Positions 14,718 through 43,984 of a stretch of 45,798 nt of DNA are shown here, piece after piece. Within the stretch, counting starts at the first letter, position 1; every line of letters begins with the position of its first letter. Source of the stretch: Candidatus Parcubacteria bacterium. Its GTDB lineage: Bacteria; Patescibacteriota; Minisyncoccia; JACPXH01. The translations under genes and the position numbers were made by a program. The stretch is taken from the NCBI GenBank assembly GCA_016196625.1, contig JACPXH010000003.1, positions 1 to 45,798 on the forward strand. Reading direction: 5' to 3'. The notes beneath the pieces are model-generated. The model ran no database searches. It saw only the letters and a program-made list of their open reading frames with translations, and was not told the origin of the DNA.

Positions 14718-16208
14718 ATGCCCAGCCAGAAAACTCCGAAAGAAGTTGCCGCCTTGATTGAGCAGCTCACCACTGCTGGTTTTGAAGCTGTTGTGGTGGG
14801 TGGGTGCGTGAGGGATCTTTTGCTCAACGCGAAACCGGCGGATTGGGATGTAGCCACAGATGCGATTCCCGAAGAGATCCAGCGGGTTTTCCCGGAGAGC
14901 GTATATGAAAATCAGTTCGGCACCGTGGGCGTGAAAACCGGCAGCGATGATCCATCGCTCGCGATTGTAGAAGTAACCACGTATCGGGTGGACGAATCAT
15001 ACTCTGACCAGCGTCACCCGGATCGGGTGCGGTTCACCAAGAGTCTTGAGGAAGATTTGGCGCGGCGGGATTTTACGATCAATGCCATCGCACTGAAAAT
15101 CAAAAATCCAGATCAAAACTCCAAAATAGCGGAAGACTACGAAATTGTTGATCCGTTTGGCGGGCAGGCCGACCTTGAGGCGAGGCTTATCCGCGCGGTG
15201 GGGGAGCCGACCACACGTTTCCGGGAAGATGCGCTGCGGCTCATGCGGGCGGTGCGGCTGGCCACACAGCTCGGGTTCACGATTGAGCCGGAAACCACCG
15301 CGGCTATCAAGGCGAATGCGCGGTTACTCAAAGCCATCGCCGCAGAGCGCATCCGCGACGAACTCACGAAATTGGTCATGGCAGATAAGCCCGCTCTTGG
15401 TTTCACGTTGCTCAAGGATTTGGAGTTGCTGGAATACGTCTTGCCTGAACTTGCCGAGGGGGTTGGCGTGGGCCAGAATAAGCACCACATCTATCCGGTG
15501 TTTGAACATTCAATCAATTCGCTTGAGTACGCAGCCCACGCCAAGTACTCGCTCAACGTTCGGCTCGCCGCGCTCTTGCACGATGTCGGCAAACCAAAAA
15601 CCAAGCGGGGCGAAGGGCCGGATTCCACGTTTTACGGCCACGAGATGGTGGGGGCAAAGATGACGCGTCAAGCTCTTCGCCGCCTCAAATTCTCCAAGGA
15701 TATCGAGGAGCAGGTAACGCATCTCGTGCGCTACCACCTCTTCTATTACAATGTGGACGAGGTAACCGAAGCCGGGGTCCGGCGGCTCGTGCGCAAGGTT
15801 GGGCCGGAGCACATGGCTGATCTCATCAAGTTGCGCACCGCAGACCGGAAGGGATCGGGTGTGCCCAAAGCCATGCCGTATAAACTTCGGCATTTGCAGT
15901 TTTTGATCGAGAAGGTTTCGCGCGATCCCTTGACCGTCGGAATGCTCAACATCAGGGGCGATGACATCATGCGGATTTTGAAGATTGACCCCGGGCCAAA
16001 GGTCGGTCTAATATTGAAAGCCCTCATGGACGAAGTGCTTGATGATCCGGGGAAAAACACCACAGAATATCTTGAGGCGCGCATTGCCGAGCTCGGTGCG
16101 CTATCAGAGCCAGAGCTCCGAAAATTTGCCCAAGCCGGGGAGGGGAAGGTGGAGGAGTTCGAGGCCGGGGCAGTCGCCGAAATAAAAAAGAAGCACTGGG
16201 TGCAGTAA
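14718..16208 (+). CDS. cca: CCA tRNA nucleotidyltransferase / poly(A) polymerase family with HD domain
   Basis: VVGGCVRDLLLNAKPADWDVATDA, RRDFTINAIAL, HDVGKPKT, HEMVGAKMTRQALRRLKF. Confidence 0.95.
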   Translation: MPSQKTPKEVAALIEQLTTAGFEAVVVGGCVRDLLLNAKPADWDVATDAIPEEIQRVFPESVYENQFGTVGVKTGSDDPSLAIVEVTTYRVDESYSDQRHPDRVRFTKSLEEDLARRDFTINAIALKIKNPDQNSKIAEDYEIVDPFGGQADLEARLIRAVGEPTTRFREDALRLMRAVRLATQLGFTIEPETTAAIKANARLLKAIAAERIRDELTKLVMADKPALGFTLLKDLELLEYVLPELAEGVGVGQNKHHIYPVFEHSINSLEYAAHAKYSLNVRLAALLHDVGKPKTKRGEGPDSTFYGHEMVGAKMTRQALRRLKFSKDIEEQVTHLVRYHLFYYNVDEVTEAGVRRLVRKVGPEHMADLIKLRTADRKGSGVPKAMPYKLRHLQFLIEKVSRDPLTVGMLNIRGDDIMRILKIDPGPKVGLILKALMDEVLDDPGKNTTEYLEARIAELGALSEPELRKFAQAGEGKVEEFEAGAVAEIKKKHWVQ

Positions 16209-16209
16209 A

Positions 16210-16422
16210 TTGTAAGAAATCATCGCGTTGTTTACACAAACAGACATGATACGATCTGACACCAAGCCGGGCAGGCTCTCGCTACGCGAAAATCCCCAGC
16301 GAGGATTTTCGCTGCTCTTCGGCCTCGCTCCTCCGCCTGCTGGCGGAGACCCTGCCCGCTCGGCCTCAGAAGCCACTCGAGCCTACCCGGCTTGATGCAA
16401 ACAACGCTAGCCTTTCTTACAA
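16210..16422. repeat. Nested-palindrome element downstream of cca
   Basis: Outer TTGTAAGAAA-5-GCGTTGTTT (16210-16233) / AAACAACGC-5-TTTCTTACAA (16399-16422); middle AAGCCGGGCAGG/CCTACCCGGCTT; inner GCGAAAATCC/GGATTTTCGC and CTCCGCC/GGCGGAG. Confidence 0.75.
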
Positions 16423-16462: not shown

Positions 16463-16646
16463 CGGGCTGTAGTGGACCGGTACCACGCTTGGCCCGCCCC
16501 GCACCAATTCGCCGGGGATTAGTGTAGCGGCAACATGCATGGTTCGGGACCATGATACGGTGGGTTCGACTCCCACATCCCCGAATGAAGAATTTGGTGC
16601 GGGGTGAAGGACCAAGAGGCAGAGGGTTCAATTCCCTCCAGCCCGA
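16463..16646 (+). tRNA. Outer interrupted tRNA (tRNA-Pro-like) containing a complete tRNA-Pro in its anticodon loop
   Basis: Acceptor CGGGCTG (16463-16469)/CAGCCCG (16639-16645)+A; D-arm GTGG-ACCGGTA-CCAC; anticodon stem CTTGG (16488-16492)/CCAAG (16612-16616); variable AGGCA; T-arm GAGGG-TTCAATT-CCCTC. The loop is 119 nt instead of 7. Confidence 0.7.
16513..16584 (+). tRNA. tRNA-Pro(CGG), CCA not encoded
   Basis: CGGGGAT TA GTGT AGCGGCA ACAT G CATGG TTCGGGA CCATG ATACG GTGGG TTCGACT CCCAC ATCCCCG A. Confidence 0.92.
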
Positions 16647-16756: not shown

Positions 16757-16827
16757 GGGCCTATAGCACAGCGGTAGTGCGCCGCATTCGCATTGCGGAG
16801 ACGGGAGTTCGATCCTCCCTAGGTCCA
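16757..16827 (+). tRNA. tRNA-Ala(CGC), CCA not encoded
   Basis: GGGCCTA TA GCAC AGCGGTA GTGC G CCGCA TTCGCAT TGCGG AGACG GGGAG TTCGATC CTCCC TAGGTCC A. Confidence 0.92.
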
Positions 16828-17031
16828 CATTTCAAGATTTCAAGACTTCGCAGTGCATGTTTTTGTGGCAACCATAGTCGCTTGACATTTTCTTGATATC
16901 ATAATACTGTTTGCGTCGGAGTTTAACTTGGTAATTCCGCGTAGTCTTGCTGCGCGGTCATGCCGCGCGGAGGGTCATCTGACCCATCAGGCGGCCGTGG
17001 ACATGGACTTGTATCGAAGGAGGGCGGGAGC

Positions 17032-19385: not shown

Positions 19386-22300
19386 ATGAAATTTTTCCAA
19401 CGTCTGCGCGCGCGCCCTTTCTCCGAGCGGGGCTTTACCGCGCGAGAACGCCGCCAAGTCCTCGCGGCAACAAGAAATAAAGACGTTGCGGGCGTCGCAC
19501 TGCCGCTCGCAGCGAAATCGCCAGCGCCCGCTCGGGCGGGGTTTACAATCGTGGAGGTGCTCATTACGATCGGGCTCCTTATTTTGGTCATGTTCGGGAT
19601 TTACGGCGCCTACAGCCTCATGATCCGGCTGACCGGCCAAAGCCGGGCGCAGACCGTGGGGCTGCAGCTGGCTCAGGAAAAAATTGAATTTATCCGTAAC
19701 CTGCCCTACCAGAGCGTGGGCGTGGTCGGCGCCGTCCCAGCCGGGGTCGTGCCGGCAAGCGAGAGCATGTCACGCAGCAGCGTCCAGTTTACCGTCAATA
19801 CCACTATTCGGAACATTGACGACCCCTTTGACGGAGATGCGGCCGGGTCCATTCCGGGCAAGCCCGTGGATACCGACCCGGTTGATTATAAACGCGTGGA
19901 GGTTCAGATAACATGCGCAGCGTGTCCGAGCGGTTCACCCATTGTGCTTACGACCAATGTGGTGCCCAGAGGCGTGGAGGCTGGTGCGAGTACGGGATCG
20001 CTCCTTGTGAGGGTCATCAACAAATCCGGTCAGCCCGTCGCGCAGGCCGCCGTGGGCATCAAGAACGCCGGCGTCTCGCCCACCGTTGATTTCACCGACA
20101 CGACCGATGTGAACGGCAAGCTCATGGTCGTGGGCATGCCGGCTGCTTCGGGCTACCGCCTGACGATTGCCAAGCCCGGCTACTCGAGCGACGGCACGCT
20201 CCCGCCGGGAGATCCCAAGAATCCCAACCCGGTTAAGCCCGACCCCACGATTGTGGCCGGTCAGATAACGGAGCTCACGTTCTCTATTGATCGGGTGAGC
20301 ACCCTGGTCGTTAAAACCGCCAATCAGGCGTGCGAGAGTATCGGCTACGTGAGCGCGCATGTCCAAGGGCAGACGCTCATCGGCACCAATCCCGACGTGC
20401 CCAAGACCTCATTTGAGCTGGCGACAGACTCTTACGTGGGCGGCGTTGCGACCCCCCCCGCTAACCCAACCGTGGCGGGATCAGTCAACGACTCGACAAA
20501 TTTGTCCAACCCCATTTCCGTCTTCGTTTCCGGCCCGTATGCCTATGTGGCGGCATACTCCGGCAACCGCCTGACTGTGGTTAACGTCTCCAATCCTGCG
20601 AGTCCAACGGTAACCGGTTCGGTCATGGACGCAACAAGGCTAGGGGGATCTTCCTCCGTCTTCGTCTCCGGCCAGTATGCCTATGTGACCGCAGACTTCG
20701 GCAACCGCCTGACCGTGGTTAACGTCTCCAATCCTGCGAGTCCAACGGTAACCGGTTCGGTCAAAGACAATACCAATCTAAGCAGACCCATGTCCGTCTT
20801 CGTCTCCGGCCAGTATGCCTATGTGGCAGCACACGAAGGCAGCCGCCTCACTGTGGTTGACGTGCTCAACCCTGCGAGCCCGACCGTGGTTGGCTCGGCC
20901 TACGACGCGACAAATTTGGACGGTCCCTACTCCGTCTTCGTCTCCGGCCAGTATGCCTATGTGGCACTAGACTATAGCAACCGTCTGACCGTGGTTGATA
21001 TCTCTAACCCTTTAAGCCCAACGGTAGTAGGTTCAGTGAGTGACGCAACAAATTTGGACAATTCCGCCTCCGTCTTCGTCTCCGGCCAGTATGCCTATGT
21101 GGCGGCAACCATTGGCAACCGCCTCACCGTGGTTGACGTCTCCAACCCCTCCAGTCCCACCGTGGTGGGTTCAATCAACGACGCGACCAACCTGTACGGA
21201 GCTCGCTCCGTCCGCGTCTCCGGCCGGTACGCCTATGTGGCAGTAAGCGCTGGCAACCGTCTCACCGTGGTTGACGTCTCCAACCCCTCCAGCCCAACCG
21301 TGGTGGGTTCAATCAACGACGCGACCAACCTGAACTACCCCGTTTCCGTCTTCGTCTCCGGCCGCTACGCCTATGTGGCGGCATTCGACGGCAGCCGCCT
21401 CACCGTGGTTGACCTCGGGCAGTGGGTTGACACGTCGCCCATCTCGCCCGCCGTCGTCGGCAGCGTTAACGACGCGACCAATCTGAATTTCCCTGCCTCC
21501 GTCTTCGTCTCTGGCCGGTACGCCTATGTGGCAGCGGCCACTGGCAACCGCCTCACTGTAGTTGATATCTCTAATCCCTCAAGTCCAACTGTGATGGGTT
21601 CGGTCAGAGACGCGACCAATCTGAACAACCCTATCTCCGTCTTCGTCTCTGGCCGGTACGCCTATGTGGCAGCATTCAGCGGTAACCGCCTCACCGTGGT
21701 TGACGTCTCTAATCTCTCAAGTCCCACAGTGACAGGTTCAGTCAACGATGACACAAATTTGAATGGCGCCTATTCAGTCTTCGTCTCCGGCCGCTATGCC
21801 TATGTAGTGGCACAAACCGGCAACCGCTTGACCGTGGTTGACGTCTCCAACCCCTCAAGTCCCACAGTGGTGGGTTCAGTCAATGATGCCGTAAATCTGA
21901 ACACCTCTTACTCCGTCTTCGTCTCCGGCCGGTACGCGTATGTAGCAGCATTCTCCGGCAACCGCCTCACTGTAGTTGATATCTCTAATCCCTCAAGTCC
22001 AACTGTGGTGGGTTCGGTCAATGACGCGACCAATCTGAACGGCGCTATCTCTGTCTTCGTCTCTGGCCGGTACGCCTATGTGGCAGCATTCTTCGGCAAA
22101 CGCCTCACGGTGGTTGATATCTCCAATCCCTCAAGTCCAACTGTGGTTGGCTCGGTCAGAGACACGACCAATCTGAGCGGCGCCCGCTCCGTCTTCGTCT
22201 CCGGCCGGTATGCGTATGTGGCGGCATACTCCGGCAACCGCCTCGCTGTAGTTGATATCTCCAATCCCTCAAGTCCAACTGTGGTGAGTTCAGTCAATGA

Positions 22301-23354
22301 CGCGACCAATCTGAATTTCCCTATCTCCGTCTTCGTCTCCGGCCGGTACGCGTATGTGGGGGTATACACCGGCGACCGTCTCACGGTGGTTGATCTTGGC
22401 AGTTACGTTGAGACGCCCACAACCGCCGGTACCTGGCAGAAGGTGGTGCCGAACCTGGAGGCGGATTCGTATTCGGTTAGCCTCACGCCCCTGCAGCAGT
22501 ATGACCTTGCGGGGACGATTCCGATTTTGCCGGTGAATCTGCTGCCGAATTCGAATCAAGACTTGACGCTCGTCTTGGCCAATAAGACCGCTCACAGCCT
22601 CCGGGTTTCGGTGCGCGACAGCGCTACCGGCTTGCCGCTTTCTGACGCCGCGGTAACGCTCCAGCGCGGGCCGTTTAACCAGACGATTCAAAGCGGCGCA
22701 GGCTACTTTAATCAAACCGATTGGTCCGGCGGGCCGGGCCAAGACACCTATGGCAATTACACTCGGTACTGGGCTGATGACGGTAACGTGGATACCACCG
22801 GTTCAGCGGCCGGAAAGATCGCGCTCAAAAAAATCGGCGGGCAATACCCGGCCTCCGGCACCTTGATTTCTTCCACGGTTGATTTTGGCGAATCCGTAAA
22901 TCCAATTTCGATTTTGTGGAATCAGAGCGTGCAGTTCATTGAAGGTCCGCCGCCGCAGAAGTTTCAAATTGCGACGAATAACGACAATGCGACCTGGAAC
23001 TTCCTTGGTCCTGACGGGACAGCAAATACCTTTTATACGGTCGGTAATACTTCCCTCAATGCGATCCATAATGGTTCCCGCTATCTTCGCTATCAGGTAA
23101 TGCTCAAGGCGCCGCCCGGCGGGGTTGCCGAAGGGGGGGTGGGGCAAGTCGTTGCCCAAGCGCCGCAGGAGATCCATGATATCGCGGTTACGTATGCCAA
23201 GGGCTGTGCTACACCCGGTCAGGCGTTTTTCTCGGACGTGCCCACCGAAACCTATAACCTCAAGATACGCAAAGACGGGTATCAGTCCTTGACGAATCAG
23301 GTGACCGTACAGGGCGCCACTTCCGTAGACGTGGTCTTAAGTCCGCTCCAATAA
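19386..23354 (+). CDS. Giant prepilin-like protein (PilV-type N-terminus, carboxypeptidase-regulatory-like domains, 14 LVIVD-type beta-propeller repeats)
   Basis: Prepilin motif RAGFTIVEVLITIGLLILVMFGIYG; 46-aa repeats SVFVSGRYAYVAA..GNRLTVVDVSNPSSPTVVGSVNDATNL; DNA repeat period 138 bp. Confidence 0.85.
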   Translation: MKFFQRLRARPFSERGFTARERRQVLAATRNKDVAGVALPLAAKSPAPARAGFTIVEVLITIGLLILVMFGIYGAYSLMIRLTGQSRAQTVGLQLAQEKIEFIRNLPYQSVGVVGAVPAGVVPASESMSRSSVQFTVNTTIRNIDDPFDGDAAGSIPGKPVDTDPVDYKRVEVQITCAACPSGSPIVLTTNVVPRGVEAGASTGSLLVRVINKSGQPVAQAAVGIKNAGVSPTVDFTDTTDVNGKLMVVGMPAASGYRLTIAKPGYSSDGTLPPGDPKNPNPVKPDPTIVAGQITELTFSIDRVSTLVVKTANQACESIGYVSAHVQGQTLIGTNPDVPKTSFELATDSYVGGVATPPANPTVAGSVNDSTNLSNPISVFVSGPYAYVAAYSGNRLTVVNVSNPASPTVTGSVMDATRLGGSSSVFVSGQYAYVTADFGNRLTVVNVSNPASPTVTGSVKDNTNLSRPMSVFVSGQYAYVAAHEGSRLTVVDVLNPASPTVVGSAYDATNLDGPYSVFVSGQYAYVALDYSNRLTVVDISNPLSPTVVGSVSDATNLDNSASVFVSGQYAYVAATIGNRLTVVDVSNPSSPTVVGSINDATNLYGARSVRVSGRYAYVAVSAGNRLTVVDVSNPSSPTVVGSINDATNLNYPVSVFVSGRYAYVAAFDGSRLTVVDLGQWVDTSPISPAVVGSVNDATNLNFPASVFVSGRYAYVAAATGNRLTVVDISNPSSPTVMGSVRDATNLNNPISVFVSGRYAYVAAFSGNRLTVVDVSNLSSPTVTGSVNDDTNLNGAYSVFVSGRYAYVVAQTGNRLTVVDVSNPSSPTVVGSVNDAVNLNTSYSVFVSGRYAYVAAFSGNRLTVVDISNPSSPTVVGSVNDATNLNGAISVFVSGRYAYVAAFFGKRLTVVDISNPSSPTVVGSVRDTTNLSGARSVFVSGRYAYVAAYSGNRLAVVDISNPSSPTVVSSVNDATNLNFPISVFVSGRYAYVGVYTGDRLTVVDLGSYVETPTTAGTWQKVVPNLEADSYSVSLTPLQQYDLAGTIPILPVNLLPNSNQDLTLVLANKTAHSLRVSVRDSATGLPLSDAAVTLQRGPFNQTIQSGAGYFNQTDWSGGPGQDTYGNYTRYWADDGNVDTTGSAAGKIALKKIGGQYPASGTLISSTVDFGESVNPISILWNQSVQFIEGPPPQKFQIATNNDNATWNFLGPDGTANTFYTVGNTSLNAIHNGSRYLRYQVMLKAPPGGVAEGGVGQVVAQAPQEIHDIAVTYAKGCATPGQAFFSDVPTETYNLKIRKDGYQSLTNQVTVQGATSVDVVLSPLQ
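20472..22420 (+). repeat. Tandem 138-bp coding repeats (14 units)
   Basis: Recurring tccgtcttcgtctccggcc..tatgcctatgtggc with 138-bp spacing. Confidence 0.92.
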
Positions 23355-43800: not shown

Positions 43801-43984
43801 CAGTTCGCCTCGGCGAGCTGTTACTGTTCTGGAGCGAGTAGGGGGAACCCCGCACCGAGTTCCGAAACGGGGTTGACTCAACTCACGTTACTGCCTCGGT
43901 AACGCCTGCGGCTTTGCGTCATCTTCGCACCGCTTCTTCCCCGAGAATTGGTGCGGGGCAGGTCGAACCCCATGCTTGAGTATA

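Follow-up and report, generated by a model that had tools for sequence, protein, structure and literature searches.

The window analysed here is the entire 45,798-nt contig JACPXH010000003.1 of a Candidatus Parcubacteria bacterium (assembly GCA_016196625.1), the parent genome of which (G000) measures 818 kb and is 94% complete. Downstream of its cca gene, we found a nested pair of tRNA genes, in which a complete tRNA-Pro(CGG), bounded by terminal inverted repeats (TIRs), lies within the anticodon loop of a second, outer tRNA. The features of this locus, its neighbours and a second element with the same repeats are given below; L and G numbers denote loci and genomes, respectively.

16463..16492, + strand: 5' half of the outer tRNA-Pro (acceptor, D arm, 5' anticodon strand), assigned from the sequence and from the un-nested Pro tRNA that follows cca in relatives
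16493..16496, + strand: junction tetranucleotide CCCG (C-N-N-G class), in place of the loop bases TTCG, as inferred from the homologous loop TTCGGGA; junctions were compared across 53 loci
16497..16507, + strand: left TIR CCCCGCACCAA, part of a perfect inverted repeat, with the same repeat in other genomes
16513..16584, + strand: inner tRNA-Pro(CGG) (ARAGORN; Rfam tRNA, 57.9 bits), the sole Pro(CGG) gene found in the assembly
16594..16604, + strand: right TIR TTGGTGCGGGG, which pairs with CCCCGCACCAA
16605..16608, + strand: junction tetranucleotide TGAA, identical at other loci of orientation B (L119, L133, L150 and the T-loop cases)
16609..16646, + strand: 3' half of the outer tRNA-Pro (loop GGA, 3' anticodon strand, variable loop, T arm, acceptor, A73), assigned from the sequence
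14718..16208, + strand: cca, the gene for the CCA-adding enzyme (Pfam PolyA_pol and others), the syntenic anchor of the outer tRNA-Pro
16757..16828, + strand: tRNA-Ala(CGC) (ARAGORN), the downstream neighbour in the conserved cca-Pro-Ala order
43848..43958, no strand assigned: another element flanked by the above terminal repeats, the left one with a single mismatch; its core, CGGTAACGCCTGCGGCTTTGCGTC, is palindromic and holds no tRNA; similar cores occur in other genomes

An earlier, sequence-only reading of this DNA had recognised the complete inner tRNA, on which ARAGORN and Rfam agree, as well as the full pairing of the outer halves at 16463-16492 and 16612-16646 (acceptor stem 7/7, D stem 4/4, anticodon stem 5/5, T stem 5/5). 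The limits of the 112-nt segment that it took as the unit of excision (16497-16608) coincide with the ends of the insert. Absent from it was the perfect 11-bp inverted repeat around the inner tRNA, which also encloses other tRNAs elsewhere. Both cloverleaves are present in the minimum free energy fold of the region (-88.8 kcal/mol, z -4.0; 0 of 200 shuffles equally good), and the inner and outer tRNAs share 69% identity. The outer tRNA was seen by ARAGORN only when introns were allowed, and was then labelled tRNA-Phe(GAA) with an intron. This label was rejected, as the outer tRNA is most probably a tRNA-Pro, an assignment that rests on C1:G72, A73 and synteny. Automatic counts of acceptor pairs misalign some loci including the window (4+1 versus the true 7/7), and are used here only qualitatively.

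The sequence-only reading had proposed that nested loci be sought in related genomes, and a DNA search of 93 relatives gave similar ones. A flank-blind scan of 85,462 species genomes, which required both repeats and a T-loop-like motif between them and set no condition on the flanks, returned 52 matches, 48 of which hold an ARAGORN-confirmed complete tRNA between the repeats. Once five loci from other searches are added, the total is 53 tRNA loci in dozens of genomes, covering 14 isotypes; these are not all independent, since L119 and L150 are orthologous, and diverged copies will have escaped because near-perfect repeats were required. Judging from record titles, the hosts are mostly Patescibacteria (Moranbacteria, Kerfeldbacteria, Doudnabacteria, Giovannonibacteria and others); beyond these, several loci are in one Elusimicrobia genome, two in Endomicrobia and one each in TA06 and Thermodesulfovibrionales. 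A pattern made of the repeats only found repeat pairs, enclosing either a tRNA or a palindromic core, in 27 of the 384 genomes scanned in the class; in the sampled phylum outside the class it was rare (one further genome of 380). The reversed control pattern had no match in any of the 384 and 380 genomes, which excludes chance. Although most of the genomes are metagenome assemblies, an assembly artefact is unlikely because the arrangement recurs in independent assemblies together with gene synteny.

The element is about 95-145 bp long across loci and ~108 bp in the window, and ends in 11-bp TIRs; the matched spans, of 90-142 bp, are taken up by a tRNA, and no protein is encoded in the element. 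CCCCGCACCAA/TTGGTGCGGGG or close variants bound the tRNAs at the 53 loci and the tRNA-free copies alike. Constant junction tetranucleotides take the place of loop bases, and fall into two classes. In class A (23 loci) TTCA is followed by CCCCGCACC...GGTGCGGGG and then CAAG, while in class B (19 loci) CNNG is followed by CCCCGCACC...GGTGCGGGG and then TGAA or a similar sequence; the two classes are reverse complements of each other, and 11 of the 53 loci fit neither. The window belongs to class B, its loop TTCGGGA having been turned into CCCG, the insert, and then TGAA-GGA. As it is found in both orientations, a DNA element is more plausible than an RNA processing signal. Being short, non-coding, bounded by conserved TIRs and present in several copies per genome and in both orientations, the tRNA-bearing element (hereafter the cassette) resembles miniature inverted-repeat transposable elements (MITEs). 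Unlike MITEs, its cargo is a functional essential gene and its target is the cognate gene, and neither a partner transposase nor a clear target duplication was found for it.

Other small palindromic structures were also observed. A tRNA-free element with the same repeats (L061, positions 1501-1601 of G354:C6) is apparently located in a hairpin loop of a 16S rRNA gene, as its flanks resemble 16S near the GACGTCAAATC motif. L123, L125, L060, L146 and L150 carry additional small palindromes, often followed by CAGGC, between the outer D arm and the anticodon stem. In the window, positions 16210-16422, between cca and the outer tRNA, hold imperfect 27-nt inverted repeats (81%) around further palindromes and resemble another mini-element.

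The question of which of the two tRNAs works can be approached through gene inventories. As for other tRNA-Pro genes, on which the sequence-only reading had suggested a check, Pro(TGG) and Pro(GGG) are encoded elsewhere in the assembly, and Pro(CGG) by the inner gene only. In the near-complete inventory of G364 (42 matches), the nested Gly-CCC, Glu-TTC and Ser-GGA are each the sole gene for their anticodon, and the same holds for the nested Val-TAC and Ala-CGC in that of G084 (48 matches). The outer halves are decayed or lost at L107, L113 and L126, and the loci overall show every state of outer decay. L119 and L150, which are orthologous, have identical inner tRNAs and TIRs; in L150 the acceptor ends of the outer tRNA are mismatched and two extra palindromes are present. 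The outer tRNA thus appears to be a relic, and the inner one the working gene. Since other loci show all states of decay, the undecayed state of the outer stems here is consistent with an insertion that took place fairly recently, one of two explanations that the sequence-only reading had put forward. As a separate observation, the 38 matches in G000 include no tRNA gene for Phe, Tyr, Trp, His or Asn; missing contigs (the assembly being 94% complete) or interrupted genes may account for this.

Alternatively, the outer tRNA could be functional if the insert were spliced out, in which case the locus would yield a second tRNA-Pro(CGG). The outer stems in the window are fully paired, and the excision of 16497-16608 indeed places CGG in frame in the outer loop, but with C33 rather than U33, as had been foreseen; loop bases are altered at other loci as well. 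At L107, L113, L121, L126 and L150, the outer tRNA lacks a half or has acquired additional palindromes, no common splicing motif was found among the loci, and orientations A and B would give different RNA structures. The insert shares its position in the anticodon loop with the group I and II introns of bacterial tRNAs and with archaeal introns bearing a bulge-helix-bulge (BHB) motif. Unlike these introns, it holds a tRNA, occurs in both orientations and in T loops too, and is too short for group I, as the sequence-only reading had already remarked, or for group II. Rfam detected only tRNAs in the window and no catalytic intron core, and the predicted fold is a plain stem with bulges on the 3' strand and no BHB motif. 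We therefore regard splicing of the outer tRNA as extremely improbable. Of the three options considered in the sequence-only reading, a novel tRNA-in-tRNA processing and a trans-spliced or permuted source are not supported in view of the two orientations, the altered loop bases (TTCG to CCCG in the window, C33), the decayed or partly lost outer halves and the pair L119/L150, and the one that fits is a tRNA disrupted by a mobile tRNA cassette.

Comparison with relatives bears on the order of events. An un-nested Pro tRNA lies 3' of cca, on the same strand and within 500 nt, in 20 of 29 other relatives, which indicates that the outer tRNA of the window is the ancestral tRNA-Pro of the locus and that the insert came later. 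Mean identity to the Pro(CGG) genes of relatives is 0.64 for the inner and the outer tRNA alike and does not discriminate between them; it is position, not identity, that marks the outer tRNA as the ancestral one. G074 is nested at the same cca-Pro site with the insert in the opposite orientation (type A), and G028, of the same genus, has an empty site. At least two separate insertions have affected this tRNA, of type B in the window and L119/L150 and of type A in G074. Across the class, tRNA-Arg(TCG), cca, tRNA-Pro(CGG) and tRNA-Ala(CGC) are recurring neighbours (L155-L184).

The flanks, which were not part of the search, show on inspection by eye that nearly every insert interrupts a loop of an outer tRNA. 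When they were scored against a tRNA panel, with the inner tRNA of the locus itself left out, the best isotype was that of the inner tRNA at 40 of the 53 loci, as compared with a mean of 5.4 and a maximum of 15 in 20,000 shuffles. At most of the 13 exceptions, a relic of the same isotype is readable by eye (e.g., L104, L121, L124, L138), or a half has been lost or a neighbouring tRNA interferes (L113). The T loop is interrupted at eight loci, and in four of these (L132, L136, L141, L144) the outer anticodon is readable and identical to the inner one (CCC, CCC, CCG and GGA, respectively). Triple nesting occurs at three loci, L105 (Gly), L116 (Leu) and L151 (Glu). L127 and L131, from related Moranbacteria, combine two lineages of tRNA-Ala(TGC), the inner one of one locus being the outer one of the other, which would fit the exchange of cassettes between lineages.

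Such matching could also have arisen in situ, if slippage or template switching at a hairpin-rich tRNA gene copied the tRNA into its own loop, the repeats being by-products or later additions. The inner and outer tRNAs are nearly identical at L133, as are the inner two levels of L151, the isotype is apparently always matched, and tRNA cassettes are unseen outside tRNA genes. Against this, one repeat sequence is found across classes and phyla and bounds tRNA-free elements too, and the inner tRNA is often of another lineage than the outer one, as in the window and in the opposite Ala order of L127/L131. We thus consider an origin in situ to be unlikely.

The principle has a precedent in tRNA-dependent lysogeny, in which the sole tRNA-Lys(TTT) gene is interrupted by a phage that brings its own copy (Guerrero-Bustamante and Hatfull 2024, PMC10865867). 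Likewise, the cassette disrupts a single-copy tRNA gene (sole anticodons in G364, G084 and G000) without rebuilding it, the outer halves staying separated, and provides a complete tRNA of matching isotype (40 of 53 loci versus 5.4 expected). The lysogenic system is, however, a whole phage with a tyrosine integrase, the tRNA being located elsewhere in the phage, whereas the cassette is ~108 bp long, too small for an integrase gene, protein-free and bounded by inverted repeats, and its tRNA is nested in the loop of the disrupted gene, with up to three levels of nesting. Genomic islands also target a tRNA gene whose function is restored, but by a matching fragment at one att junction and with an encoded integrase (Islander, PMC4383910), in contrast to the whole second tRNA and no protein of the cassette. 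It could be proposed that the cassettes are what deletions have left of larger phages or islands, which had integrated in tRNA genes and brought a tRNA of matching isotype with them; the lysogenic phages above are the precedent for this. Integrases are known to target sublocations of tRNA genes similar to the anticodon- and T-loop positions, which would suit such remnants. Nevertheless, the insert has symmetric ends and a near-constant size, no phage gene lies between the repeats, and separate deletions would not yield an identical TIR every time. Among viral contigs, the pattern matched 24 times, and none of the matches held such a tRNA element on inspection. An origin as phage or island remnants is accordingly quite improbable, more so than one in situ.

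The reading that we favour, and hold to be probable, is that a mobile cassette encoding no protein breaks a tRNA gene of which the cell has a single copy, and makes good the loss with the copy that it carries, the outer tRNA not being spliced. In the window, a ~108-bp non-autonomous MITE-like element with tRNA-Pro(CGG) as cargo would have entered the resident tRNA-Pro(CGG) gene 3' of cca, a single-copy gene, at its anticodon loop. The resident tRNA would have been destroyed, its halves remaining as a relic, and the cargo tRNA, presumably transcribed and processed by ordinary RNase P and 3' trimming, would have taken over the function and made the insertion survivable. The same process would have been repeated for many isotypes in related bacteria, sometimes into an already inserted copy, giving rise to triple nesting. 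Comparative sequence evidence, on which the whole study is based, shows the anatomy, the recurrence, the isotype match, the empty sites, the inner genes as sole genes for their anticodons, and the decay of outer halves against the conservation of cassettes; from it we infer transposition as the mode of movement and survival selection as the cause of isotype matching.

Several points weigh against the mobile cassette. In the window, the outer stems show no damage, and Pro comes second, behind Ala, in the automatic scoring of the flanks. No clean target-site duplication was seen at the loci whose junctions were compared, a 4-bp duplication of CAAG being present in L105 only. Random movement should have placed tRNA cassettes in ordinary intergenic DNA too, where tRNA-free elements do occur, but essentially none were seen there, and survival selection alone may thus not explain the isotype matching. 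Finally, neither a transposase nor a recombinase could be linked to the repeats. Domains of Y1 transposases were found in 10 of 11 cassette genomes versus 54 of 93 relatives, an enrichment that is only suggestive. Palindromic mini-elements and Y1 genes in most of the host genomes recall the REP/REPIN elements and their RAYT (Y1) transposases (PMC3116915, PMC8266576); unlike these, the cassette ends lack a GTAG- or GGAG-type tag by the hairpin, and no TIRs lie near the ten Y1 genes examined. No longer TIR pair with a transposase was found among the loci examined, whole genomes not having been searched exhaustively.

The near absence of tRNA cassettes from intergenic DNA may mean either that insertion is restricted to tRNA-like hairpin loops or that the cassette finds its cognate gene by homology. 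It is attractive to speculate that these Russian-doll tRNA genes represent a selfish, protein-free class of elements homing to the cognate tRNA gene, with the isotype match built into a homology- or hairpin-guided insertion mechanism and not merely filtered by survival, albeit we regard this as a tentative and rather doubtful extension. Unrelated to the nested locus, positions 19386-23354 of the window encode a 1322-aa protein with 12 LVIVD repeats.

We found no earlier description of such nested tRNA genes in the open-access literature, although absence there is not proof. Complementing a disrupted tRNA is a known principle; its protein-free, inverted-repeat, nested and multi-level form is, as far as we can tell, new. 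On this reading, an essential single-copy RNA gene can be both the cargo and the target of one tiny mobile element, which would explain in what way the copy of another lineage can take the place of an essential tRNA gene at its own locus. The phenomenon is easily missed because standard annotation detects the inner tRNA only. The nested genes may offer a natural system for studying both the movement of protein-free elements in streamlined genomes and the tolerance of tRNA gene replacement.
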